From Acidobacteriota bacterium (GTDB taxonomy: Bacteria > Acidobacteriota > Thermoanaerobaculia > Multivoradales > Multivoraceae): 38,250 bases of DNA. The notes under the pieces were generated by a model. It ran no database searches. It had not been told where the DNA came from and worked only from the letters and a program-made list of their open reading frames with translations. The DNA lies in contig JAPOVF010000364.1 in assembly GCA_026708285.1 (NCBI GenBank), positions 1-38,250 of the forward strand, in the 5' to 3' direction. Positions 2,113 to 36,431 of this stretch are shown here, in pieces; position 1 is the first letter of the stretch, and the number at the start of each line of letters is the position of its first letter. Both the position numbers and the translations under genes were made by a program.

Positions 2113-5018
2113 CAGGGCTCGCCGCGACGCCGTCCGCGGACGGCAGACGGCAAGGAGTCGTCCTGCGCGAGGACGAGAGCGGCAACCACCTGCTTCATCG
2201 TCTCGCAACCACGGAGGAAGGCCTCGACGGGTATCCGTTCGTCGGCGCCGTGGATCCCGCCCGCATCCTCGGCGGCGAGCGTGAAGGGCGAGAAGCCGTA
2301 GGCGTCCACGCCGTGGCGGCGGAAGAAGCGCGAGTCCGTCGTACCGGCAATCATCGTCGGCGCCACCGGTGCATGCACGCCGAGAACGCCTTCCAGCGTC
2401 CGGTAGACGTCGCTGCTCGTGCTGGACGCCGGACTGCGACCGGAACGCAGCAACTCCTCGACATGGATGCCGCTGCCGAGCACCGTTTCCACCCGGCGGC
2501 GGAACCGGTCGACATCGGTGTCCGGCAGGAGTCGCGCGTCGATCAACGCACTCGCCTCGCCCGGGGCCACGTTCACCGGGCCGGCGCCGTTGTCGATCCG
2601 GGTGATCTGAACCGTGTCCCGAAAGCTCGCCGACATACCCGGCAGGAGAATCCCGTCCAATGTCCCGTCCCGGATCCGACGGTCGAGCTCAGCCTGTACG
2701 ACATCCAGGGGCTGATCGAAGACCTGAGCGAACTCGCCCTGACGGAACTCGGCCAAGGCGCGGTAGGCCTGGTGGGCCGCGGCCGTGACCCGCCAGGGAT
2801 GCTCGAGGTCAAGCACCCGGTTCAGAGCCCTCAGCAACCGATGCGTAGGGCTCGCCGGGTTGAATCCCGAGCCATGGCCGCCCCGACCGGCCGCGCTGAC
2901 CCGCAGCCAAAGCACCTGTTTCTGAGCCGTCTCGATTCCCCACCACAGCAGCCGGTCTCCGGCCATCCGGTTGACGCCTGCCTCGTTCAGCACCGCCTCG
3001 ACATCACCGAACAGTTCCGGGTGCTCGGCCAGCAGCCATGCAACACCGTCTTCACCACCCGCTTCCTCGTCGGCGCTGGCTACGAGAACCAGGTCCCGGC
3101 GCCGGGAACGATCGCTCTCGAGCAGATCGAGCATGGCAACCAGGTGCGCGACGCCGAGGCTCTTCGCGTCCAGCGCACCGCGACCCCAGAGCCGCCCCCG
3201 GTGCAGCTCACCGCCGAACGGCGGCCGGCTCCAGCCGTCCCCCGCGGGCACGACATCGAGGTGGTGCAGCAGAACCAGGCCGCGACCGGTCGTTTCGACC
3301 GCGTTTGCCGGCAACCGGGCATAGAGGTTCGCTCGTCCGTCCGGACTCACCAGCATCCGGACTTCGATCTCTCCTTCCGGATCGCCCCGTTCGATCAGCG
3401 CCGCAAGGTACTCGGCGGCAAGGCGCTCGCCACCGGGCGGGTTGCTCGTATCGTAGGAAACGTAGCGCTGAAGCCAACCCACGGGGTCGTCCGGTGCCGG
3501 CAGGTTCGCGACCAGGGCCGCGGGGTCGGCCGGCGGCGGGGCCGCATCGAGCAGATCGCGTACGACCTGAGCGTACAGCTCCACACCTTCGACGAAGGCG
3601 GGCAGTGCGATCTTCTCGTTCGGACCCGCCACGGTCATCGTGTCGGCGGAGACGAGCCGGAACGGAGTGAAGCCGTAGGAGGCTATGCCCTCGTTGCGGA
3701 AGAACCGGGAGTCGTTGGCATAGCGGGTGAGCAGGTAGGGACCGACGCGACCCGGCTCGACGCCGGTCCGCCAGCGCAGCGATTCGATCAACTGAACGTA
3801 AGCCGGGTGGTCGAGGGGACTTCCCCGCACCGCACCCCGGCGCTCGTGGATCCTGATGTCGATTCCGTCGAGGAGACGGTCCGGGAGGAGTTCGGCGGCT
3901 GCCGCGTCGGCATCGAGCCCGGGCAATACGTGGAGCACGATCCGCAGCCGGTAGCCGCCGGCCGGCGACGGTTCGACGGCGAACGGGTGCGCCTCGTTCC
4001 GAAACAGGGCCTTGAGCAGAGCCGGCAGACGCTCGAACAGCCCTGGCTCGCTCAGGACGCGCTCGGGCTCGGCCAGCGCGGCCCGGTAGTCCGGATGAAG
4101 ACGCGACGGCGCGTAGGCGGTGGCGAAGGCCTTCACCTCCGGCACCAGGGCGGTCGGCGGCGCTGAGCGGAGCGCCTCGAACAACGCCGTTCGGAGTTCT
4201 TCCAGTCGCTCCGCCGACCCACTGGTTGCCGTCACTTCGAGGAATTGCTTTTGCGCGAACGACGTGCCCCAGTACTTGACCTCACCGACGGAGGGCGCCT
4301 CCAGCACCCCACCTTCGGTGAGCACAGCCCAGAACCGGCGCGTCAGCTCCGGCCGATTGGCGAGAATGTGGCGCGTACCCGGACCGCTCCCGGTCTCCTC
4401 GCTGCTGGTCGCGAGGAAGATCAGCGAGCGCCGCGGACGTCGGCCCGTCTCGTCCATCCGCTCCTTCGCCGCCAGCACCGCGGCGAGCTGGGCAACGGTG
4501 ACGCTCTTCATGTCGAAGACGCCTCGGCCGATGATCCAGGGCGGTTCGAGCCGGGCCTCGAAGGGAGGCACGACCCAGTCCTCCGGACGGCGTATCGGAT
4601 CCACATCGAGGTGGTTGTGAAGGACGAGCGCCTCCTCGCTCTCGCCCTCGAGGATCGCCCACAGGTTCGCCTTGGCGCCCGGATGCTCTTCGATCTCAAC
4701 CGTGAGGCCGGCGTCCTCCAGGATCCCCGCCAAGTAACGGGCAGCATCGATCTCCCGGCCCGTATCCGGCGTCGTGTCGATCCGGACCAGGGCCTGGAGC
4801 CGCCGGACATCCTCGTTCGCCTCGTAGTCGACCTCCGACCAGGCCGTGTCTGTCACCGGCGCCGGGACGCGCGGTCGCAACAGGACGCCAAGAACCACCA
4901 CGACGAGCAAGGTTCCGTAGAGCGCGATGCGGGACGCCACGGGGTGGCGCGCGTGCAGTTTCGCGCTACTCGACATCAACGGGATCAGCTTAACCCTTCC
5001 ACGGCGAACCGCTCTCAC
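2112..5018 (-). CDS. Tandem (two-domain) M20-family metallopeptidase with N-terminal TM segment
   Basis: Two consecutive M20 cores: LHNHLDVDP...DMKS...SSEETGS and LLHHLDVVP...DAKS...ADEEAGG. The start may instead be ATG 4976 (MSSSAKLH). Confidence 0.9.
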   Translation of the reverse strand: MRAVRRGRVKLIPLMSSSAKLHARHPVASRIALYGTLLVVVVLGVLLRPRVPAPVTDTAWSEVDYEANEDVRRLQALVRIDTTPDTGREIDAARYLAGILEDAGLTVEIEEHPGAKANLWAILEGESEEALVLHNHLDVDPIRRPEDWVVPPFEARLEPPWIIGRGVFDMKSVTVAQLAAVLAAKERMDETGRRPRRSLIFLATSSEETGSGPGTRHILANRPELTRRFWAVLTEGGVLEAPSVGEVKYWGTSFAQKQFLEVTATSGSAERLEELRTALFEALRSAPPTALVPEVKAFATAYAPSRLHPDYRAALAEPERVLSEPGLFERLPALLKALFRNEAHPFAVEPSPAGGYRLRIVLHVLPGLDADAAAAELLPDRLLDGIDIRIHERRGAVRGSPLDHPAYVQLIESLRWRTGVEPGRVGPYLLTRYANDSRFFRNEGIASYGFTPFRLVSADTMTVAGPNEKIALPAFVEGVELYAQVVRDLLDAAPPPADPAALVANLPAPDDPVGWLQRYVSYDTSNPPGGERLAAEYLAALIERGDPEGEIEVRMLVSPDGRANLYARLPANAVETTGRGLVLLHHLDVVPAGDGWSRPPFGGELHRGRLWGRGALDAKSLGVAHLVAMLDLLESDRSRRRDLVLVASADEEAGGEDGVAWLLAEHPELFGDVEAVLNEAGVNRMAGDRLLWWGIETAQKQVLWLRVSAAGRGGHGSGFNPASPTHRLLRALNRVLDLEHPWRVTAAAHQAYRALAEFRQGEFAQVFDQPLDVVQAELDRRIRDGTLDGILLPGMSASFRDTVQITRIDNGAGPVNVAPGEASALIDARLLPDTDVDRFRRRVETVLGSGIHVEELLRSGRSPASSTSSDVYRTLEGVLGVHAPVAPTMIAGTTDSRFFRRHGVDAYGFSPFTLAAEDAGGIHGADERIPVEAFLRGCETMKQVVAALVLAQDDSLPSAVRGRRRGEP

Positions 5019-5060
5019 GGCGCCCCCTTGTCCTGTACGGCCGAGAAGCTGCTACCGTCC

Positions 5061-6131
5061 ATGCCGCCTCCCGTGCCGGTCTCCCGCCACCGTCCGAGTG
5101 CAGCCGACCCGACCCAGCCGTTCCGCGGCATCGGGCGGGGTCTTCTCATCCTCCTGCTGCTCGGCATCGTGACCTTCGCAGCGCTGGGTTTCGTCGGCGA
5201 CTTCAACCAGATCCGGGATCTCATCGGGGGTTTCGACGGCGGCGTACTGACCCTCGTGCTCCTCCTGTCCGCGGTCAACTACGGCCTCCGCTTCGTCCGT
5301 TGGCAGGTCTACCTCCATCGGCTCGACATCCGACTCCCCATGGGTCGGAGCCTGGCCATCTTCCTCACCGGGTTCCTGCTAGCGGTGACGCCGGGCAAGG
5401 CGGGCGAACTGGCGAAGGCATGGATGGCGCGCGAGTTCGGCGCGTACCGGGCCCGCCCCGTCGTCGCCGTCGTGGTCACCGAACGGCTCCTCGACGTCAT
5501 CGCCGTCCTCCTGCTGCTGGCGTCCTCGGTCGTGGTCTTCACGGGACAGCGATCGCTCACCGCGACGATCGTTCTGGTGGTGGCCGCCGCGGTGATCGCC
5601 CTGGTCTACCGACCCCTCGCGGACCGCCTCATGCCGATGCTGGCGAAGACACGCCTGGGCGCGGGACGCGCGGCGATGCTGATCGACATCCACCAGGCGT
5701 TCAACCGCCTCCTCGAACCACGGACGCTCCTCGTCGGCTTGGCGCTCTCCACGACCGCCTGGGCAGCCGAGGGAATCGGTTGCGCGCTGGTCGTCCGGCA
5801 CTACGAACCGGCGGTGCCGATGCTCGCTTCGGTGTTCGACTACGCCGCCTCCAGCATCGCAGGCGCCGCCTCCATGCTCCCCGGGGGTCTGCTGGCCGCC
5901 GAGGGCTCCCTGGTCCTGTTGCTGGAGCGTCAGGGAGTCGCTCTCGACGCCGCCATGGCGTCGACCGTCATCGTTCGCGCGGCGACGCTCTGGTTCGCCG
6001 TCATCGTCGGCCTGCTGGCGCTTCCCTGGGTACTGGTGCTACTCCGCCGGGCCGCCGACGTAGACGATCAGGAGCACCGTCAGGCTGTAGAGGCCGATGT
6101 TGACCAGAAACGGGAGGTCGAACAGCAGTAA
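5061..6131 (+). CDS. Lysylphosphatidylglycerol synthase TM region / UPF0104-like flippase-domain integral membrane protein
   Basis: Internal ATG of the 4245..6131 ORF; multi-TM protein with FLTGFLLAVTPGKAGELAKAWM, ERLLDVIAVLLLL and SIAGAASMLPGGLLAAEGSLVLLL motifs typical of this family. Confidence 0.85.
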   Translation: MPPPVPVSRHRPSAADPTQPFRGIGRGLLILLLLGIVTFAALGFVGDFNQIRDLIGGFDGGVLTLVLLLSAVNYGLRFVRWQVYLHRLDIRLPMGRSLAIFLTGFLLAVTPGKAGELAKAWMAREFGAYRARPVVAVVVTERLLDVIAVLLLLASSVVVFTGQRSLTATIVLVVAAAVIALVYRPLADRLMPMLAKTRLGAGRAAMLIDIHQAFNRLLEPRTLLVGLALSTTAWAAEGIGCALVVRHYEPAVPMLASVFDYAASSIAGAASMLPGGLLAAEGSLVLLLERQGVALDAAMASTVIVRAATLWFAVIVGLLALPWVLVLLRRAADVDDQEHRQAVEADVDQKREVEQQ

Positions 6132-6929
6132 CTCGGTCGGATTGCGCTGCTTCGGGTTCTCCGCTTGATGGATGAGGTAGAGGTACCTGAAGATGCCGAA
6201 CAGGACGAACGGAACCGTCCAGATCAGGCTGTAAGCACCGAAGCGGGCGACCGTCTCGTCCGCCGTCGTGTACAGGGCGTAGGACAGGAGAGTCGACGCG
6301 GTCACAACGTTCATCATCTGATCGAGGAACGTCGGGCTGTAGTGCGTCAGGACCGCCCGCTGCTCTCCCGCCTCGCCAGGGAGCAGGATGAGTTCGTGCC
6401 GCCGCTTAGAGAACCCCAGGAACAGCGCCAGGAAGACGGTACAGAGCAGCAACCAGGCCGACACCGTGGCTCCGACCGCCGCGGCCCCGGCCAGCACCCG
6501 AATCACGTAGCCGCTCGACAGGACCATCACGTCGACGATCACGATCTCCTTCAACCACAGGGTGTACAGGAGGTTGACCGCCAGGTAGGCGGCGACGAGG
6601 AACGTCGTCTGGCTGTTCAGGGTCCACGCCGCGCCCCCGGCCAGCACAGCCAGAATCGAGCAGGCTACCGAAGCCGGCACCGCGCCCAACGCTCCGGACG
6701 CCACCGGCCGAAGCCGCTTCGTGGGATGCCGCCGGTCGCGTTCGCGGTCCACCAGGTCGTTGAACAGATACACCGCGCTTGCGGCGGCGCAGAACGCCAG
6801 TGCCGCGACCACCGAGGCGGTGACCGTTTCCGGATCCGTCAGGCCGCCGGCGAAGGTCGCCGGAGCGAGAACGAACACGTTCTTGCTCCACTGGGCGGGG
6901 CGAAGCGATCGGAGGAGTGGTGCGACCAT
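6039..6929 (-). CDS. UbiA-family prenyltransferase, decaprenyl-phosphate phosphoribosyltransferase-like
   Basis: LRPAQWSKNVFVLAP, YLFNDLVDRERDRRHPTKRLRPVASG (NDxxDxxxDxxHPxK), LGFSKRRHEL; multi-TM. Confidence 0.9.
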   Translation of the reverse strand: MVAPLLRSLRPAQWSKNVFVLAPATFAGGLTDPETVTASVVAALAFCAAASAVYLFNDLVDRERDRRHPTKRLRPVASGALGAVPASVACSILAVLAGGAAWTLNSQTTFLVAAYLAVNLLYTLWLKEIVIVDVMVLSSGYVIRVLAGAAAVGATVSAWLLLCTVFLALFLGFSKRRHELILLPGEAGEQRAVLTHYSPTFLDQMMNVVTASTLLSYALYTTADETVARFGAYSLIWTVPFVLFGIFRYLYLIHQAENPKQRNPTELLLFDLPFLVNIGLYSLTVLLIVYVGGPAE

Positions 6930-12153: not shown

Positions 12154-12644
12154 TCGTCGCCAGCGCGGAGCGTGAAGTCGAAGTCGAGGCGCAGGCTCGG
12201 GAGAACGGCGACTGGACGATCGCCATCGACGGTCGCGAATACCAGGTCGACGCGGCGACCGTCGGACGGCCGGACGTGCTGAGTGTCATCGTCGACGGGC
12301 GCCAGACGACCGCGAGCGTCCGTGCACTCGGCGAGGGCGTCTACGTCGTCAACGGGGCTGAACTGCGCGTGATCGACCCCCGGTCACGGGGCTTGGCCAC
12401 CGCCGCGCAGCAGGCCGAGGACGGCGCGTTCGAGGCCACGGCGTACATGCCCGGCCGCGTCACGGCGGTGCTCGCAGTGGAAGGCGCGGACGTAGCCGCC
12501 GGCCAGGGCATCCTCGTGCTCGAGGCGATGAAGATGGAGAACGAAATCCAGTCGGAGATCGACGGCCGGCTCGAGAAGCTCCTGGTCGAAGTCGGTCAGA
12601 CCGTCGACGGCGGCGATCCGCTGTTCGTGGTCAGCCCGACCTAG
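12144..12644 (+). CDS. Biotin carboxyl carrier protein / biotin attachment domain protein
   Basis: C-terminal VLEAMKMENEIQSEIDGRLEKLLVEVGQTVDGGDPLFVV biotinylation motif. TTG start preceded by GGAGGGG; 10-bp overlap with accC. Confidence 0.92.
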
Positions 12645-13038
12645 GGGTCGCGCCGCCGAGGACCGGAGCGGCAAGACCGCTGACGAAGATCACGGTCGCA
12701 TTCAGGATTCGGGCCACGCTTTCGGCGCCAGCCAAAACCGGCGCGTAGGTCCAGAACAGCCACAGCAGACTCCATGTGACCACGGCGGCCAGCGAGCCGA
12801 GCAGGAACTCCCAGACCGGCGGCGTCCCGGTCGCCGGCGCCGGGGCGAGTCCGAGCCGCGGCCGCACCATGGTGGCCAGCAGGAACAGCGCCGCGAACCA
12901 CAGGCCCGAAACCAGCCCATCCGCGGCTTCGGCGGCCGTCGGTTGCTCGGCAAGATGAAGAGCCGACACGAGCGTCACGGTCGGCAGCGCGAAACCGGCC
13001 CCACGCCAGAGACAGGGGCCCAGGCCGCCGACTTTCAC
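12631..13038 (-). CDS. Small membrane protein (about 4 predicted TM segments), function unknown
   Basis: Hydrophobic segments GLWFAALFLLATMV, VWEFLLGSLAAVVTWSLLWLFW, ILNATVIFVSGLAAPVLGG. GTGA overlap with the upstream dtxR-like gene supports it being real. Confidence 0.65.
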   Translation of the reverse strand: MKVGGLGPCLWRGAGFALPTVTLVSALHLAEQPTAAEAADGLVSGLWFAALFLLATMVRPRLGLAPAPATGTPPVWEFLLGSLAAVVTWSLLWLFWTYAPVLAGAESVARILNATVIFVSGLAAPVLGGATPRSG

Positions 13039-13715
13039 GGCGCCTCCCGTACGAGGACCTTGGACGCGGCCGGAAAGCCCAGGCTGAGCTGTCGGGACCC
13101 CGCAACCACGGCGACGCTGCCCGCGGTCTCGTCCCGCGCAGCGACCTCGACCGACTTGCCCGGCGCCAGACCCTCACGCTCGGCGAAGCGCAGGAACTCG
13201 GCGTCCTGATCGGTGACCCGCACCACCTCGACCGTGCAGTTCAGCGGGCACTTCAGCAGGCTGGGATGATCCACGATCTCGATGTGGCCGTCGGCGCTGG
13301 GGATGGGGTCGCCATGCGGGTCGACCGACGGACGGCCCAGCATCTCGTCCATCCGTTCGATCATCCGCTCCGAGACCGCGTGTTCCAGCAGTTCGGCTTC
13401 GGAGTGGACCTCGCTCCAGTCGAATCCCATCACGCTGACCAGAAACAGCTCGACCAGCCGATGCCGCCTGAGCACGTGCGCCGCAAGCTTGCGGCCCGCG
13501 GGCTCCAGCCGTACACCGCTGTAGGGTTCGTAGGCGATCAGCCCGGACTCGGCCAGCGTCTTCATCATCGCGGTAACCGAGGCCGGCGCCACCTCGAGCA
13601 GGGCCGCGATGCGGCCCATGGGCACGAGATCCCTACCAGCCTGCCGCGCCTCCTGCTCAGCCCGGAAGATGCACTTCAGGTAGTCCTCGACGGTGCTGCT
13701 GGCGCGCATGGTCAT
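13035..13715 (-). CDS. DtxR/MntR-family metal-dependent transcriptional regulator (with FeoA-like C-terminus)
   Basis: MTMRASSTVEDYLKCIFRAEQE..., HTH AALLEVAPASVTAMMKTLAESGLIAYEPYSGVRLEPAGRKLA, metal-site region RHRLVELFLVSVMG..VHSEAELLEHAVSERMIERMD. ATGA overlap with the upstream gene. Confidence 0.9.
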   Translation of the reverse strand: MTMRASSTVEDYLKCIFRAEQEARQAGRDLVPMGRIAALLEVAPASVTAMMKTLAESGLIAYEPYSGVRLEPAGRKLAAHVLRRHRLVELFLVSVMGFDWSEVHSEAELLEHAVSERMIERMDEMLGRPSVDPHGDPIPSADGHIEIVDHPSLLKCPLNCTVEVVRVTDQDAEFLRFAEREGLAPGKSVEVAARDETAGSVAVVAGSRQLSLGFPAASKVLVREAP

Positions 13716-14608
13716 CCCTGTCTGGAGCAGACGAGTGTACCGGCGCCTTCGGCGACTTCGGCCGGATGCCGGAGCACGGACTGAAGCAGACCCGGCTCGC
13801 GGCCGTCGATGATCAGCGACTCGACGTCGCCCCGGGCCAAACGCCAGGCCGTCACCAGCCGATGCTCCATGCCACCCGTCACGTCGATGGCCGCCGAACC
13901 GCCTACCGACGCGGACGCCGCCCCGATGTTCGTCGCGTCGATGCGTGGAATCAGCCGTCCTCCGCCGTCCAGAACGCCGGCCGTAGCACCCAGCCACACT
14001 GCGCGCCGAACGTCGATCCCAAGCGCGGGCAGGCTGCCCGCGAGGAACTCGAACACCGTCTCCGTCGAGACGATCGCCGCGCCGCGCCTGCGGTCGATCG
14101 CCACGTCGCCCATCGTCACCGGCACCAGGCCGAGCCGCAGGGCTTCTGCCAGGGGCGCGGGGGGATCGCCGCACGGCTCTCCATCCTCGGCGACCAGGAA
14201 GCCCGACGGCGGCTGGGAGTACGCGGGCACGCCGGCATCGATCAGACTGGAGACGACGACCCGGTGCAGGGCCTGCGCCGCGGCCTGCGTGCGGGCGATG
14301 CCCATCCGATCGGCCGGGGTCTCTAGCCGCCGGCCGTGAGCGCCTCCCACCAGGCCCGCGGCGCGCGCCTCCGGGTGACCGAAGGAGCCGCTGCCGTGAC
14401 CGACGATCAGCCCGCCACGGGGCCGGCCGGCCGCGATCTCGGCAGCCAGTCGCTCCAGACGCCGCCTCTCGACCGACCGCGGTCTGGCCTTGTCGGTGAT
14501 CAGGCTGCCGCCGAGCTTGACCAGGGTCACGTTCAACCGACCGCGGCTGCCGCTCGTCTCCGGCTGCGATCGTCGGACCATGATCAGAGCTCGGCGCCGC
14601 CACGCCAC
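13712..14608 (-). CDS. Isopentenyl phosphate kinase (archaeal-type IPK, amino acid kinase fold)
   Basis: VTLVKLGGSLITDK, GGLIVGHGSGSFGHPEA, PVTMGDVAIDRRRGAAIVSTE, AIDVTGGMEHRL, SLIIDGREPGLL. Start 14608, or 14581 if non-overlapping. Confidence 0.88.
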   Translation of the reverse strand: MAWRRRALIMVRRSQPETSGSRGRLNVTLVKLGGSLITDKARPRSVERRRLERLAAEIAAGRPRGGLIVGHGSGSFGHPEARAAGLVGGAHGRRLETPADRMGIARTQAAAQALHRVVVSSLIDAGVPAYSQPPSGFLVAEDGEPCGDPPAPLAEALRLGLVPVTMGDVAIDRRRGAAIVSTETVFEFLAGSLPALGIDVRRAVWLGATAGVLDGGGRLIPRIDATNIGAASASVGGSAAIDVTGGMEHRLVTAWRLARGDVESLIIDGREPGLLQSVLRHPAEVAEGAGTLVCSRQG

Positions 14609-15636
14609 ACGGGAGGGCCCCCGGTCCGGTCGCGCACGACGTACTTCACGCTGCCCTGCGCCTCCAGGCGGTCAGCCACCTTCTCTGCGTCCGCCGGCTG
14701 GCAGATCACGTGAACGTTGGCGCCAGCGTCCATCGTCGCGTAGGCGGCCACGCCGTCGGACCGCAAGCAACGGACCGCCGCCAGCACCTCGATCGTCCCA
14801 GGCGTCCAGTAGTAGACCGGCGGCCGGGAGGACATCGCGATGAGGTGCAGGTCGATCCCCTCCTCCTCGACCGCGTCGCCGAGCCCCTTGAAATCGCGGG
14901 CATGGAGCGCGGCGCGGACACGCTCGAGCCTCCCGTCGAGCGCGGCGAGGCGAGGCGCGAAGTACGGACTGCTCTCGGCCCGCCGGTGTCCGTCCCGCGA
15001 CGACACCTTCTTTGCGCCTGTTTCGACGACCGCGATCAGGTCGCAGAGTTCCCACGCCCGCTCGTCCAGGATCTGAACTGCCGCATTGGCGTCCCCGTCC
15101 GGCCACTCGACATAGCCGCCCCAGGCGGAGCGGGCGGCCGACCCCGAACCGCTGCTCCGCGACAGGGCGGAGAGCCTGCGCGGCGCCAGGTCGAACCCCA
15201 TGCAGGCCGTGGCGGCGAGCGTCAGCGCGGTGAAACCGGAGGCCGACGAAGCGATCCCCGCAGCCGTCGGGAACGTGTTGTACGTCGCGATGCGGAAGCC
15301 GCCCGAGTAGGGTGCGGCCGTCCGCCGAGACCAGTCCCGCAGCCGGTCCAGATGGCGCTTCGTGCGCTCGACGAATGCCGGGGGCGGCGCGGCCGGTCGG
15401 CCCGGCCGCCCGCCGGCCGGCTTGTCCAGCCACCAGATCTCGTCCTCCTCGCCTTCGCCGAACGGCGATGCAGAACAGACCGACCGGCACGCATCGAGGG
15501 TCATCGATAACGATCGGTTGAAGGGCACCGGCTCCTCGAGATCGCGGGCACCCCAGTACTTGATGAAGGCGATATTCGACGGCGCCTCCGCGGTCACCGG
15601 ACCCGGCTCGCGCACCGGTTCGATGGGGGATTCCAT
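14584..15636 (-). CDS. Mevalonate (di)phosphate decarboxylase family protein; possibly phosphomevalonate decarboxylase
   Basis: APSNIAFIKYWGARD, NTFPTAAGIASSASGFTALTLAA, SGSGSAARSAWGGYVEW, KKVSSRDG, ATMDAGANVHV (catalytic Asp region). Confidence 0.9.
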   Translation of the reverse strand: MESPIEPVREPGPVTAEAPSNIAFIKYWGARDLEEPVPFNRSLSMTLDACRSVCSASPFGEGEEDEIWWLDKPAGGRPGRPAAPPPAFVERTKRHLDRLRDWSRRTAAPYSGGFRIATYNTFPTAAGIASSASGFTALTLAATACMGFDLAPRRLSALSRSSGSGSAARSAWGGYVEWPDGDANAAVQILDERAWELCDLIAVVETGAKKVSSRDGHRRAESSPYFAPRLAALDGRLERVRAALHARDFKGLGDAVEEEGIDLHLIAMSSRPPVYYWTPGTIEVLAAVRCLRSDGVAAYATMDAGANVHVICQPADAEKVADRLEAQGSVKYVVRDRTGGPPVWRGGAEL

Positions 15637-15689
15637 GATGTGCTGCCGAGCCTACAGCCGCCGTCCAACCGTCCTGGAACGCAGACGGA

Positions 15690-16796
15690 TCAGTCCTCGA
15701 ACCGCAGCCCGTCGCCGCCGATGGGTGCATCGACCGCCACCAGGTCCGACAGGCCTTCGACCGTCCGGGCGTCCCGTCCCCCAAGCATGCACACCAGCGC
15801 GCCCGCCGATTCGCCGTCGAGAGCACCGGCGCCGGAGATCTTGGCAACTCCGCCGGCCGCTTCGACGCGCGCTATGCGCTCCGCGACGGCGGGCGGCACG
15901 ACACCAAGATCGACCAGGGCGCGGTGCGCCGCGGCCACCGACGTCACCGCAACCGGCGGCTGGTCCGTGACGACCGCGACCCGGAAGGACTCGACGGCCG
16001 CGGCGATCCGGTCGAGTACCGCGCCAACCCGCTCGGAATCCTCCTCGTACCGCCGGCGTACGATCGTCACCACGGCGCCTGTGGTCTGGTCGGGAGCGCC
16101 ACTGTCCACGATCCCGATCTCAAGGCGAAGCCAGTCCGGTCGCGGCAGGTCGTCGAACCGCAGGGTACCGCCCGTGCGGCGCACCAGGACGACACCGCCG
16201 CGCAGCACCGTCCCTGTGTCGATGCCGGACGGGAAGCCATGCTGCCGCCGCTCCACCTCCAGGGCAACGTTCTCGACTGCCGCCAGTTCCTGGTCCGCGG
16301 AATCGATGCCGCCCGAAACCGCACGAACGGCGGCGACGACGCCGACCGCGGCAGCCGCCGAACTGCCCAGACCCGCCCCAACGGGAATCGCCGATCGCAG
16401 CCGCAGGTCGAGCGACCGCTCCCGCAACCGGGCCGACGCCGCTGGTGTCAGCGACGCCACCGCCTCCCCGACCGCGATCCGGACCAACGAAGCCTGCTCG
16501 CGATCCGACCGAAAGGGCTCGCAGCCCGCCTCGTACGCCCGCCACCGCCGACGCGCGTCGTCGGTGAACGCCTCCACCTCTTGCCACGCACTCTCCTCCA
16601 GCACGTCGATGTCGGCAAGGTCGAGAGTCACCCGGCCGCGGCCCAGGGGTCGAATCCTCTCTCCCAGAGACGCTTCCACTTCGAGCCGCAGATCGACCGC
16701 AGCCACCACCGCCGGCCGGCCGTACACGGCGGCGTGCTCGCCCATCAGGATCACCTTGCCGGGCACGCTCAGCCGCACCGATCCGGTGTCGGCCAT
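15690..16796 (-). CDS. Mevalonate kinase (GHMP kinase)
   Basis: VPGKVILMGEHAAVYGRPAVVAAVDLR, IPVGAGLGSSAAAAVGV, ERRQHGFPSGIDTGTVLRGG, AKISGAGALDG. Confidence 0.88.
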   Translation of the reverse strand: MADTGSVRLSVPGKVILMGEHAAVYGRPAVVAAVDLRLEVEASLGERIRPLGRGRVTLDLADIDVLEESAWQEVEAFTDDARRRWRAYEAGCEPFRSDREQASLVRIAVGEAVASLTPAASARLRERSLDLRLRSAIPVGAGLGSSAAAAVGVVAAVRAVSGGIDSADQELAAVENVALEVERRQHGFPSGIDTGTVLRGGVVLVRRTGGTLRFDDLPRPDWLRLEIGIVDSGAPDQTTGAVVTIVRRRYEEDSERVGAVLDRIAAAVESFRVAVVTDQPPVAVTSVAAAHRALVDLGVVPPAVAERIARVEAAGGVAKISGAGALDGESAGALVCMLGGRDARTVEGLSDLVAVDAPIGGDGLRFED

Positions 16797-16805
16797 GGGC
16801 GGCGC

Positions 16806-18065
16806 TCAGCCGGCGCTCGCCGCGCTCGAGCGACCGAGCCGCTCGTGGGCGCGCGCCAGGTCGCGCGACGTGAACGCCGCGGTCAAGGACAGTTCGCCGG
16901 CCAGGACGACAGCGCCGACGATCTCGGCCAGTCGCCGTACGGCAGCTCCCGGCCGGTCCGGATCGGGCCGTACGCCCATCACTTCGAGCGCCTCGCGCTG
17001 TGTGTCAAGACCGGTACCGCCGCCGATTGCAGCCAGCGGCACGTCCGGCATGTAGACGGACGCGTAGACCGACCCGTCGTCGCGGGCCTCGAAGGAAGCC
17101 ACGCCCATCGCACCCTCGACGACGTGCGCGAGATCCTGGCCGCAGGCGACGAACACCGCCGCCAGCACGTTGGCGAACTGGGCGTTGAAGGCGAGCGCAC
17201 CGGCCGCGACGGAGCCGAGCAGGTTCTTGCGGTAGGCAACGTCCTGGAGCGCCTTCGCCTCCGACTTGAGCACCTTGCGCACGGTCAGTTCGTCGAGGAC
17301 GACTTCAGCGTGGATCCGCTTGCCGCGGCCGAGCTGGTAGTTGACCGCCGAGGGCTTCTTGTCGACACAGTAGTTGCCGGACAGCGCGACGCACTGGACG
17401 CCGGTTTCCGGTTCGATCAGCTCCGACACCAGGCGGTCGCAGGCGATCGTGACCATGTTCATGCCCATCGCGTCCCCGGTGGCGAAGCGGAAGCGCAGGA
17501 ACACCGTGCTGCCGACGACCGACGGCCGAATCTCCCGAAGCTCCAGGAAGCGGCTCGTCTCGTGCGCCTTGGCGCGGATCCTCTCCTCGTTCGCTTCCAG
17601 CCAGTGGAGCAGCCGCCTGGTGTCTTCGATTCCCGTGGTGCGGAAGACCGGCGCCCGGGTCATGCCCACGTCCTCGACGAAGACGGTGGCACCGCCCGCC
17701 GCCGTGATTGCCCGGCAGCCGCGGTTCACGCTGGCGAGCAGGGCTCCCTCGGTCGTCGCCATCGGCACGCAGACCGTGCCGTCGATCTCACTCCCGCGGA
17801 CGAGAACCGGCCCGGCGACGCCCATCGGCACCTGAGCGGCGCCGATGAAGTTCTCGCAGTTCTGGCTGGACGCGCGTTCATCGTCGAGCGAGTAGCCGCC
17901 GATGGCTCCAAGCGCCCCGCTGCCGCTAGCCAGTTCGAGAGCGCGGCGCCGCACCGCGGCCTTCCCGGCCGCGTCGAGTCCCGGCGGCGGCCGATGGAAA
18001 CCGCGTTCCCCGCCGGCGATCTCGACCGCCGCCGCCTCGAGCTCGGGATCCAGCCGGTCAGCCAT
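16806..18065 (-). CDS. Hydroxymethylglutaryl-CoA reductase (class I-like)
   Basis: ENFIGAAQVPMGVAGP, MATTEGALLASVNRGCRAI, FATGDAMGMNMVT, NYCVDKKPSAVNYQLGRGK, AAIGGGTGLDTQREALEVMG. ATG at 18065 overlaps fni by 8 bp. Confidence 0.95.
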   Translation of the reverse strand: MADRLDPELEAAAVEIAGGERGFHRPPPGLDAAGKAAVRRRALELASGSGALGAIGGYSLDDERASSQNCENFIGAAQVPMGVAGPVLVRGSEIDGTVCVPMATTEGALLASVNRGCRAITAAGGATVFVEDVGMTRAPVFRTTGIEDTRRLLHWLEANEERIRAKAHETSRFLELREIRPSVVGSTVFLRFRFATGDAMGMNMVTIACDRLVSELIEPETGVQCVALSGNYCVDKKPSAVNYQLGRGKRIHAEVVLDELTVRKVLKSEAKALQDVAYRKNLLGSVAAGALAFNAQFANVLAAVFVACGQDLAHVVEGAMGVASFEARDDGSVYASVYMPDVPLAAIGGGTGLDTQREALEVMGVRPDPDRPGAAVRRLAEIVGAVVLAGELSLTAAFTSRDLARAHERLGRSSAASAG

Positions 18066-19110
18066 CGCCTGTCTCCCGCGGCAGCGGCACGCGGCGCAGC
18101 GCCGCGAGGTCGACGGCGCCGGTGCAGAACATGCAGATCCGCAGTTCGAATGCGGTGCGGGCGATCCGGTCGACCACTGCGTCGGTCGAAGCGTTGGCCG
18201 CCTCCAGGAAGGGGAACGCCATACCGGCGATGTCGGCGCCGAGGGCCAGGGCCTTCGCCGCGTCGACGCCGGAGCGGATGCCGCCGCTACCGATGACCTG
18301 GACGCCGGGGACCGCCGCCAACTGGCGGATCGACTCCGGCGTCGGGACTCCCCAGTCGGCGAAGCGTTCGCCAAGAGCCACCTCGTCGGCCCGGGCCGCC
18401 TCGATCCGGGCCCAGCTCGTGCCACCGACGCCGGCCGTGTCCAGGATCCGGACACCGACGTTGGCGAGCTCGCGGCCAACAGCGGCCGAGATGCCGCAAC
18501 CGATCTCCTTGACCACGACCGGCACGTCCAGCGCCTCGACCACCCGGGCGATCTTCGGCAGCAGCCCCCGGAAGTTCAGTTGCCCCTCCGGCTGCAGTGC
18601 CTCCTGCAGGGCGTTCAGGTGCAGCACCAGGGCGTCCGCCTCGACCATGTCGACCGCCACACGGCACTCGTCGACGCCATACCCGTAGTTCAGTTGCACC
18701 GCACCCAGGTTCGCCAGGATCGGCACGTTGGGTGCGAACTCGCGCACCCGGAACGTCGCCGCGGTCTCCGGATCGTCGATCGCCTTGCGTTGCGAGCCGA
18801 CCCCGAGAGCGACCCGCTCCGCCTCCGCCGCCTCGGCCAGGCGCCGGTTGATCCGCTCGGCAACCCCGGTGCCCCCAGTCATGCACGAGATAAGCAGCGG
18901 CGCCTCCAGCTCCCGTCCCAGGAACTCGGCGCCGATCCGCACGTCCTCGAAGTCGATCTCGGGCAGCGCCCGGTGCTCGAACCGGTAGTCGTCGAAGTAG
19001 CTCCGCTCGACCTGCATGCGTCGATCCAGCGCCAGCCGGATGTGCTCCGCCTTGCGGTCCCGCTCCCCCTCGGCCGCCGCCAGCAGCGGCCGGGTGCTCA
19101 CTTTCGCCAC
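18058..19110 (-). CDS. fni: Isopentenyl-diphosphate delta-isomerase type 2 (FMN-dependent)
   Basis: RKAEHIRLALD, SCMTGGTGVAERINRRLAEAAEA, GVGSQRKAI, LHLNALQEALQPEGQLNFRGLL, VVVKEIGCGIS, GTSWARIEAAR, IGSGGIRSG. Start codon uncertain (GTG 19110 or 19101). Confidence 0.93.
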   Translation of the reverse strand: MAKVSTRPLLAAAEGERDRKAEHIRLALDRRMQVERSYFDDYRFEHRALPEIDFEDVRIGAEFLGRELEAPLLISCMTGGTGVAERINRRLAEAAEAERVALGVGSQRKAIDDPETAATFRVREFAPNVPILANLGAVQLNYGYGVDECRVAVDMVEADALVLHLNALQEALQPEGQLNFRGLLPKIARVVEALDVPVVVKEIGCGISAAVGRELANVGVRILDTAGVGGTSWARIEAARADEVALGERFADWGVPTPESIRQLAAVPGVQVIGSGGIRSGVDAAKALALGADIAGMAFPFLEAANASTDAVVDRIARTAFELRICMFCTGAVDLAALRRVPLPRETGDG

Positions 19111-19360
19111 CCCGGTTCCGCGCCCGTACACATGCGCGCCACTGTACCGGAATTCGGCCGCGTAAGTGGAGTCACTACCGCAGATAGAGCATCCGCCGAG
19201 GCCCCGGCTGCAACGTGGCGGCGTCGGTTGCACCCGCCTGCCTGGTCGGGGCTCACGGGGGAGGCTGGACGGTGTCGGGCTGCGGCCTATCCAGCACGGG
19301 CGGCCAGCCGCAACGCTACTCTTGCTGACCGAGCCAAGCACTCCCAAGCATCAACCGACG

Positions 19361-33857: not shown

Positions 33858-36431
33858 ATGCCGCGCGGCAATCTCGAGGCCTATCGCCGCAAGCGATCCA
33901 GCGAAGCGACGCCCGAACCCTTCGGTCCTGCGACGGGAACCGGCGCGGGCCGCTTCGTGGTCCAGAAGCACGCCGCCCGGAGGGTCCACTTCGACCTGCG
34001 CCTGGAACTCGAGGGGACGCTCAAGAGCTGGGCCGTGCCCCGCGGCCCAAGCCTGGACCCGGAGATCAAGCGTCTGGCGGTCGCCACCGAGGACCACCCA
34101 CTGGAGTACGCCGACTTCGAAGGATCGATCCCCGCCGGCAACTACGGCGCCGGCGCGATGATCGTCTGGGACACCGGCCGCTGGAAGCCGCTCGAGGACC
34201 CGGTCGCCGGTATTACGAGCGGCAAGCTGCTGTTCGAGCTCCACGGCTACAAGCTGCGGGGCGTCTGGACCCTGTTTCGTACCGGCGGCAAGGGCAATCA
34301 GAACGACGGCAATCAGTGGTTGCTGATGAAGAAACCGGACGCCGCCGCCCGCGCGGACAGCGGCGACGGCGGTGATGACCTGCCGCCGCAGTCCGTGCTC
34401 TCGGGCCTGACTGTCGAGGAGCTGCGAGACGGTTGCGACCGGATCGAGGACGTACGCACCGAGATCGTCGAATCAGCCGCCCGCCGCCGCCGGGTCGATC
34501 CCCGTACCCTGCCGCTGATGCTGGCGGTCACCGGCGAAAGGCCCTTCTCCCGCCACGGCTGGATCTACGAACTGAAGTACGACGGCTACCGGCTGGTGGC
34601 GGCCAAGGAGGGCGGCAGCGTCTTCCTGCGCTACCGGAAAGGCGGCGACGTGACCGCGCTCTACCCCGAGCTGACCCGCGCCCTCCACGCGCTGCCGGTG
34701 CAGTCCCTGATCCTGGACGGCGAGGTCACCGTCCTCGACGCCGGCGGCAGGCCAAGCTTCGCCAGACTGCAGACGCGGGCATTGCTCAGCCGGCCGGTCG
34801 ACATCGAACAGGCCGCCGTTCGCCGGCCCGCGACCCTGTTCGCCTTCGATCTCGTCGCCTTCGAGGAGCACGACCTGAGGTCGCTGCCGCTACTCGAGCG
34901 CAAGACCCTGCTCGCGAAGGTCCTGCCCCCGGCCGGACCGCTCCGCTACTCCGACCACATCGAGGACCAGGGCGAGGCGTTCTTCGAGCAGGTGGTCGCC
35001 ATGGGTCTCGAGGGCGCCATGGCCAAGGACGCCGCCTCCCGCTACGTCGGCCGCCGCTCGTCGTCCTGGGTCAAGCTGAGAACCGAGCGAACCGCCGACT
35101 TCGTGATCGTCGGCATGTCGCCACCCAAGGGCAGCCGGGTCGGCCTCGGCTCGCTCCACCTGGCGGTCTGGGATGCGGAGGCCGGCGAGCTGGTCTACTC
35201 CGGGCGCGTCGGCACGGGGTTCAGCGACGCGATCCTGACGGAACTCGCGGAGCGTCTGTCGGCGATCCGGCGCGAGGCTCCTCCGTGTCGAGCGCCCGCA
35301 GGCGAGGACGAAGCGGCAGGGGGCGAGCTGACCGACGACCACCTCATGGGCGGGCGCATCGAGGACCAGACCTGGGTCGAGCCGAACGACGAACTGATCT
35401 GCGAGGTCCGGTACAAGGAATGGACGCCCCACGGCTTGCTCCGGCATCCCGTCTTCCTGCGCCTGCGCGACGACAAGCCGATCGAGGACTGCGTGCGCCG
35501 GGCCGGGCCGCGCGGCGCCGGGGACACGCCGCCGGCACCACCGAAGCCGCGGGTCGAGATCACGAACGAATCCAAGGTCTTCTGGCCGAACGAGGGCTAC
35601 ACGAAGGGCGACCTGATCGACTTCTACGCCGCGATCGCCGACTCGATGCAGCCCTACCTCAGCGACCGCCCGCTGGTGATGACCCGCTACCCAGACGGGA
35701 TCGAGGGGAAGTCCTTCTTCCAGAAGAACGCGCCCGACTTCGCCCCGGACTGGCTGCACACGGTCCGGTTGACCAGCCCGCGGACGGAGAGGGAGGTCGA
35801 GTACTTCGTCTGCCAGAACAGGGAGAGCCTGATCTACGTGGCCAACCTGGCGGCGATCGTCCTCCATGTCTGGTCCAGCCGCTTGCACGAGCTCGGTCAA
35901 CCGGACTGGTGCATCCTCGACCTCGACCCGAAGGACGCGCCCTTCGAGGACGTGATCGAGATCGCCCTCGCCATCCGCCGCCTGTGCAGGCAGATCAAGC
36001 TCCCCAGCTTCGTCAAGACCAGCGGCTCGAGCGGCCTCCACGTCCTCCTGCCCCTCGGCGGAGCTTGCACCTACGAGCAGTCCCGGGGCCTCGGCCAACT
36101 GATTGCCCAGATCATCTGCCGGCAACTGCCGGAGATCGCGACCGTCACCCGCAACCCCGAACGCCGCGGAGGCAAGGTCTACCTCGACTTCGTCCAGAAC
36201 GGCCGCGGCCGGCTGCTCGTCGCCCCGTTCAGCGTCCGCCCCCTTCCCGCCGCTCCCGTGTCGACACCGCTCCGCTGGTCCGAGGTCAAACCGGGGCTCG
36301 ACCTGCGCGATCACAACATCCGGACCGTGCCGGAACGCCTCAGGAAGCTGAAGACCGACCCGCTGCGCGGGGTCCTGAAGGAGCAGCCCGACCTGCTGGC
36401 GGCGCTGCGTCGACTGAGCGAGCTGGTGTAG
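33858..36431 (+). CDS. ligD: Multifunctional DNA ligase D (phosphoesterase - ligase - polymerase order)
   Basis: PE: FVVQKHAARRVHFDLRLELEG...DHPLEYADFEGSIPAGNYGAG; ligase: YELKYDGYRLV; polymerase: SKVFWPNEGYTKGDLIDFYAAIADSMQPYLSDRPLVMTRYPDGIEGKSFFQKN... CILDLDPKD. Confidence 0.96.
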   Translation: MPRGNLEAYRRKRSSEATPEPFGPATGTGAGRFVVQKHAARRVHFDLRLELEGTLKSWAVPRGPSLDPEIKRLAVATEDHPLEYADFEGSIPAGNYGAGAMIVWDTGRWKPLEDPVAGITSGKLLFELHGYKLRGVWTLFRTGGKGNQNDGNQWLLMKKPDAAARADSGDGGDDLPPQSVLSGLTVEELRDGCDRIEDVRTEIVESAARRRRVDPRTLPLMLAVTGERPFSRHGWIYELKYDGYRLVAAKEGGSVFLRYRKGGDVTALYPELTRALHALPVQSLILDGEVTVLDAGGRPSFARLQTRALLSRPVDIEQAAVRRPATLFAFDLVAFEEHDLRSLPLLERKTLLAKVLPPAGPLRYSDHIEDQGEAFFEQVVAMGLEGAMAKDAASRYVGRRSSSWVKLRTERTADFVIVGMSPPKGSRVGLGSLHLAVWDAEAGELVYSGRVGTGFSDAILTELAERLSAIRREAPPCRAPAGEDEAAGGELTDDHLMGGRIEDQTWVEPNDELICEVRYKEWTPHGLLRHPVFLRLRDDKPIEDCVRRAGPRGAGDTPPAPPKPRVEITNESKVFWPNEGYTKGDLIDFYAAIADSMQPYLSDRPLVMTRYPDGIEGKSFFQKNAPDFAPDWLHTVRLTSPRTEREVEYFVCQNRESLIYVANLAAIVLHVWSSRLHELGQPDWCILDLDPKDAPFEDVIEIALAIRRLCRQIKLPSFVKTSGSSGLHVLLPLGGACTYEQSRGLGQLIAQIICRQLPEIATVTRNPERRGGKVYLDFVQNGRGRLLVAPFSVRPLPAAPVSTPLRWSEVKPGLDLRDHNIRTVPERLRKLKTDPLRGVLKEQPDLLAALRRLSELV

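Follow-up and report, generated by a model that had tools for sequence, protein, structure and literature searches.

An acidobacterial operon predicted to encode an alternative mevalonate pathway, and its coexistence with MEP pathway genes

The enzymes of the alternative mevalonate pathway, and the route itself, are already known from Chloroflexota and haloarchaea. Haloarchaea of the Haloferax type combine a phosphomevalonate decarboxylase (PMD) with isopentenyl phosphate kinase (IPK) and have no phosphomevalonate kinase (PMK). Roseiflexus castenholzii likewise has IPK and no PMK, together with a decarboxylase of the mevalonate diphosphate decarboxylase (MDD) family that has a residue other than Lys at the Lys21 position (PMC3857490). 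As of 2013, no bacterial phylum with mevalonate genes other than the Chloroflexi was known to have IPK, and the Chloroflexi were described as having no genes of the deoxyxylulose phosphate (DXP) pathway (PMC3857490). A metagenome-assembled genome (MAG) of Acidobacteria subdivision 22 has mevalonate genes and no genes of the methylerythritol phosphate (MEP) pathway, and the accessible part of that report describes neither IPK nor an alternative route (PMC5462960); no earlier report of the alternative pathway in Acidobacteriota was found in the open-access literature. Here we describe an operon in a 38,250-nucleotide stretch of DNA from an Acidobacteriota bacterium (contig JAPOVF010000364.1; the whole stretch is called the window) that very probably encodes this pathway, from mevalonate-5-phosphate (mevalonate-5-P) through isopentenyl phosphate to isopentenyl diphosphate (IPP). 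The chemistry would be that of haloarchaea, with an only distantly related decarboxylase; what is new is the phyla in which it occurs, its conserved arrangement as an operon of five genes, the presence of the MEP pathway alongside it and the decay of the latter.

The window corresponds to contig C226 in a MAG that totals 4.99 Mb in 402 contigs (completeness 93.57%, contamination 4.72%) and was searched family by family with profiles. The operon comprises the following features, the last only perhaps belonging to it as its final gene:

18058..19110, minus strand: fni/idi2, type 2 IPP isomerase (TIGR02151, 387 bits, cut-off 281; GTG start at 19110, GTG at 19131 as an alternative)
16806..18065, minus strand: 3-hydroxy-3-methylglutaryl-CoA (HMG-CoA) reductase (HMGR), class I/NADPH-like (PF00368, E 1.5e-114; TIGR00533, 427 bits, below the cut-off of 442)
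15690..16796, minus strand: mevalonate kinase (MVK), GHMP family (best model TIGR00549; PDB matches are solved MVKs)
14584..15636, minus strand: MDD-family decarboxylase with a phosphomevalonate-decarboxylase-type signature (TIGR01240, 200 bits; Ala30 for Lys21, His217 for Met, Asp303 kept; top PDB match 6n0x, E 1.7e-57)
13712..14581, minus strand: IPK (NF040647, 134 bits, cut-off 120; 11 of 11 invariant residues)
13035..13715, minus strand: DtxR-family metal-dependent regulator with FeoA domain (PF02742, PF01325, PF04023)
12631..13038, minus strand: 135-residue open reading frame without Pfam match

Open reading frames and profile matches confirm what an earlier, sequence-only reading of this DNA had claimed, namely five tightly packed genes in a single direction at 13712–19110. 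The end of fni overlaps the HMGR start (ATG 18065), and the following gaps are 9 bases (HMGR–MVK), 53 bases (MVK–decarboxylase) and 2 bases (decarboxylase–IPK). The same reading had ended the operon at IPK, which did not hold, since it runs on into dtxR, whose start and the stop of IPK overlap in ATGA, and perhaps into the 135-residue frame, which begins in an overlap with the end of dtxR.

In the proposed pathway, HMG-CoA from a synthase encoded elsewhere would be converted to mevalonate by HMGR, and MVK would then produce mevalonate-5-P. The MDD-family enzyme would convert this, in an ATP-dependent reaction, to isopentenyl phosphate, from which IPK would form IPP with ATP, and Fni would isomerise IPP to dimethylallyl diphosphate (DMAPP). 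The substrate of the decarboxylase, the reactions and the flux through them are what we infer from the gene set. The upstream enzymes HMG-CoA synthase (HMGS), HMGR and MVK are all encoded in the MAG. HMGS, which the earlier reading had suggested looking for in the whole genome, lies on a separate contig (C357:8642–9745). It was found by the PF08540 profile, has both HMGS Pfam domains and a Cys within an ACYGGT motif, and its best model is TIGR01835 (246 bits, under the cut-off of 360). A PF08541 search returned FabH proteins and one further HMGS-like protein (L014, G000:C255 near 15295), which was rejected as HMGS because its catalytic Cys is apparently Ser; this protein is archaeal-HMGS-like (PRK04262, 140 bits, under cut-off) and has a C-terminal extension with a Cys motif. 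IPK has all of the invariant residues listed for the family, including the catalytic His60 (K6, G8, G9, K15, G54, H60, P140, G144, D213, T215 and G216; PMC3857490).

The gene order fni–hmgr–mvk–mpd–ipk, where mpd is the decarboxylase gene, recurs with small variations in Acidobacteriota, Gemmatimonadota, Rhodothermota and one planctomycete (Planctomycetota) bin, and with some 40 loci in genomes other than this one the arrangement is beyond chance. In the decarboxylase clade, 42 of the 45 loci also encode IPK, almost always as the gene immediately following the decarboxylase, and one more is cut by a contig end. In the Chloroflexota loci examined, such a cluster was mostly not seen, unlike the single operon of the window. 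A squalene/phytoene-synthase-family gene accompanies the operon in 21 relatives' loci, mostly directly after ipk and sometimes followed by a metallohydrolase gene and dtxR; in the genus of the window dtxR directly follows ipk (loci L015-L026 and L039). The window decarboxylase is 99% identical to those of L015 and L016 and 78–86% identical to those of 'Thermoanaerobaculia' and 'Holophagales' bins, the nearest named relatives being Acidobacteriota bins; judging by bin names, several of the relatives' bins would come from sponges or the sea. Some loci depart from the common layout. In L030 (263-2917) the order is mpd, squalene/phytoene synthase, dtxR, with ipk missing from its usual place. The MVKs of L018 (local 4342-5748) and L017 (4344-5750), both of the same genus, carry an insertion of several dozen residues between conserved motifs, made of near-repeats (GGALPAGP...AGVEGAE) in an open frame, and similar repeats precede the decarboxylase. 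An apparent MVK-decarboxylase fusion in L035 was rejected, because masked stretches (N) join the frames.

The nearest solved structures of the window decarboxylase are 6n0x (198 bits) and, behind it, the Enterococcus (165 bits) and Staphylococcus (145 bits) MDDs. The first of these, the mevalonate phosphate decarboxylase (MPD)/MDD of Anaerolinea thermophila (6n0x, 6n0z), is said to have been found by Thomas and colleagues in 2019 to use both mevalonate-5-P and mevalonate-5-diphosphate (mevalonate-5-PP). The origin of 6n0x is given in PMC9254496, and dual substrate use by the Anaerolinea enzyme also in PMC11052028. At the residues tabulated for MDD selectivity (Table 4 of PMC3857490), the window enzyme has Ala30 where MDD has Lys21; the PMD-type His described in PMC11052028 is kept as His217, and the catalytic Asp303 is retained. 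The active-site His and the missing Lys are common to the Anaerolinea and window enzymes. Replacement of Lys and Met, with His at the Met site, is the pattern of dual-specific Chloroflexota enzymes (PMC11052028), and the mutant 6n0z differs from 6n0x in the printed alignment at exactly these two sites (N→K, H→M). Throughout the clade of the window enzyme His is present (45/45 loci) and Lys absent (0/42 readable loci); a Lys21-type Lys was seen in four Patescibacteria loci, with no IPK alongside. At positions 21, 27 and 139, the R. castenholzii enzyme has Leu, Arg and Ala, and the window enzyme has Ala, Pro and Ser. The Roseiflexus MPD residues Arg83, Ala201 and Thr255 were not matched either (Pro, Ser and Ser), and since Anaerolinea 6n0x likewise has Ser, Ser at two of these sites, they are species-variable and not family-defining. 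In a tree whose sampling is biased to near relatives, the decarboxylases of the operon loci group together with full support, separately from the Chloroflexota enzymes, that of Anaerolinea included, and from Firmicutes MDD. The actinomycete Phytomonospora (L053, 3490-8681) has HMGR, MVK and a decarboxylase of the same clade beside ketosynthase genes, with Leu at the Lys21 site and the His kept; neither IPK nor an evident PMK lies within 13 kb there.

The GHMP search was made with the GHMP_N profile, as GHMP_C (PF08544) missed the operon kinases. Five GHMP-kinase genes were found in the MAG, namely MVK, the decarboxylase, ispE (C259), thrB (C30) and a heptose-kinase-like protein (C61), and a sixth match reached just 12.5 bits. 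With all five identified, this search of the whole MAG (93.57% complete) found no GHMP-type PMK, as the sequence-only reading had predicted; non-GHMP (animal-type) PMK was not searched for. A classical mevalonate pathway would require a PMK that went unrecognised, a true MDD and an IPK that just salvages isopentenyl phosphate. The decarboxylase does score above the TIGR01240 cut-off, Chloroflexota enzymes of such type are reported to take both substrates (PMC11052028), and a MAG that is just 93.6% complete could lack a gene. Set against this are the lack of a PMK-like GHMP kinase in the MAG, and of an evident one in the closed chromosome OX638294.1 described below, the absence across the clade of both the MDD Lys and a Met at the His217 site, and the location of IPK in nearly all decarboxylase loci, so that we regard a classical pathway as improbable. 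The earlier claim that IPK is a pathway enzyme rather than only a salvage one is likewise supported. Even less credible, and in our view close to negligible, is a Thermoplasma-type pathway, in which the MDD homologue would be mevalonate-3-kinase (M3K) or bisphosphomevalonate decarboxylase. Those enzymes are homologues and likewise feed IPK; however, their models score only 33.8 (cut-off 440) and 15 (cut-off 560), the catalytic Asp, absent from M3K (PMC9254496), is present in the window enzyme, and the operon has an ordinary MVK. An AcnX-type route (phosphomevalonate dehydratase plus trans-anhydromevalonate phosphate decarboxylase) is unnecessary, given the MDD-family decarboxylase.

Several observations weigh against the alternative pathway as it is proposed here. 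MVK scores under the cut-off of its own model (139.7 vs 163), the decarboxylase receives the NCBIfam label diphosphomevalonate decarboxylase and only 126 bits with the haloarchaeal PMD model NF040704 (cut-off 475), and it has MDD-like Ser-Ser at 139/141, MDD-like Ser192–Arg193 and Pro instead of Arg at 27. In addition, the MAG is incomplete and has MEP genes, so that the organism may not depend on the operon. The NCBIfam models were dropped as a test of MPD versus MDD, because homologues from Chloroflexota likewise score above the cut-off for MDD and below that for haloarchaeal PMD, and there is thus no discrimination. Ser192–Arg193 and the missing Arg27 do leave room for dual specificity of the Anaerolinea kind, and the window decarboxylase may accept mevalonate-5-PP besides mevalonate-5-P.

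The MEP search covered dxr, ispE and ispH, genes that the sequence-only reading had proposed to look for genome-wide, and all three were found above the NCBIfam cut-offs (TIGR00243, TIGR00154 and TIGR00216), with dxr on contig C110, ispE on C259 and ispH on C399. In this the genome differs from the Chloroflexi. In the relative G002, a single contig carries the mevalonate operon at 493–495 kb, dxr at 535 kb and ispH at 550 kb, and C110 and C399 correspond to successive portions of its stretch at 530–560 kb; contamination as the source of the MEP genes was rejected on the grounds of this synteny. The window organism thus probably has two routes to IPP, of which the alternative pathway suggested by the sequence-only reading is one, a coexistence that had not been foreseen. 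Dual pathways have precedents in Streptomyces and Mycobacterium marinum, in which the mevalonate route is, as far as is known, the classical one. As in the window MAG, both routes occur in one genome there (PMC13001223, PMC12632256); the window differs in that its mevalonate route is of the IPK type and that its relatives show MEP decay.

The survey of the class covered 148 genomes. IPK scores above cut-off in 56 of them, and all of these belong to the 71 genomes of the order of the window, with none among the other 77. Within the order 27 genomes have IPK and ispH, 29 IPK only, 11 ispH only and four neither (two of these with IPK in fragments). Outside the order, some genomes of one family (f13) also have neither gene above cut-off, e.g., G052, which is 99% complete. 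HMGS accompanies IPK in 42 of the 56 genomes; the others may be incomplete or have a diverged HMGS. The most telling relative is the closed 4.63-Mb chromosome OX638294.1 of the same genus, which is L018 as well as G001 and, by matching coordinates, G053 of the class survey. All five operon frames are open in it, MVK having the repeat insertion noted above, and HMGS and dxr are present. The GHMP search found no ispE among its four GHMP genes, which include thrB, MVK and the decarboxylase, with the fourth unclassified, and the profile search found no ispH. At the ispH site of relatives, between two conserved neighbours, lies approximately 0.55 kb with short ispH pieces in a broken frame (85% identity over 67 bases, E 5.5e-18). 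With ispH only a remnant, IspH cannot complete the MEP pathway to IPP there, which leaves the operon as the one evident source of IPP; the alternative pathway is thus probably the sole one in this organism. Short of an assay, this decay beside a retained operon is the strongest evidence for function.

The MEP pathway could nevertheless be the main IPP source in the genus, with a functional operon kept for one isoprenoid class or growth condition. In favour of this are the intact dxr, ispE and ispH of the window genome, ispH in 19 of 21 same-genus genomes, the frequent squalene/phytoene-synthase-family neighbour and the existence of dual-pathway bacteria such as M. marinum (PMC12632256). On the other side, the closed chromosome of the same genus lost ispE and ispH and kept the operon, and ispH is missing from three genomes that belong to other genera of the family, and from several families of the order. 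We consider this explanation possible, and somewhat less probable than its converse. It concerns physiology and is compatible with the alternative pathway as biochemistry, conflicting only on how important the operon is here, so that confidence in the two need not sum to one. A more specific, and rather unlikely, scenario is that dual members switch by metal supply between the MEP pathway, with its Fe-S-dependent IspG and IspH, and the Fe-S-free operon, by means of the DtxR-like regulator, whose translation is coupled to that of IPK, and that an always-on operon then led to MEP loss in sister lineages. The closest solved relatives of this regulator are metal-dependent regulators, including ScaR and SloR, presumably manganese sensors; a role in pathway switching is speculation.

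Elsewhere in the window, a UbiA-family prenyltransferase (6039-6929), about 7 kb from the operon, is a possible consumer of its product, and a LigD-type protein (33858-36431) has phosphoesterase, ATP-dependent ligase and primase-polymerase domains.

The pathway makes the building block of all isoprenoids, and the mesophilic MPD/IPK pairs are on offer for isoprenoid engineering. For annotation, the NCBI label 'diphosphomevalonate decarboxylase' is unreliable in these bacteria. In the window organism the operon and the ancestral MEP pathway probably operate side by side, and where relatives have lost MEP genes the operon is the one evident route to IPP. One order contains MEP-only, dual and IPK-without-ispH genomes, as well as a chromosome that retains a remnant of ispH, so that the replacement of an essential pathway can here be studied step by step.

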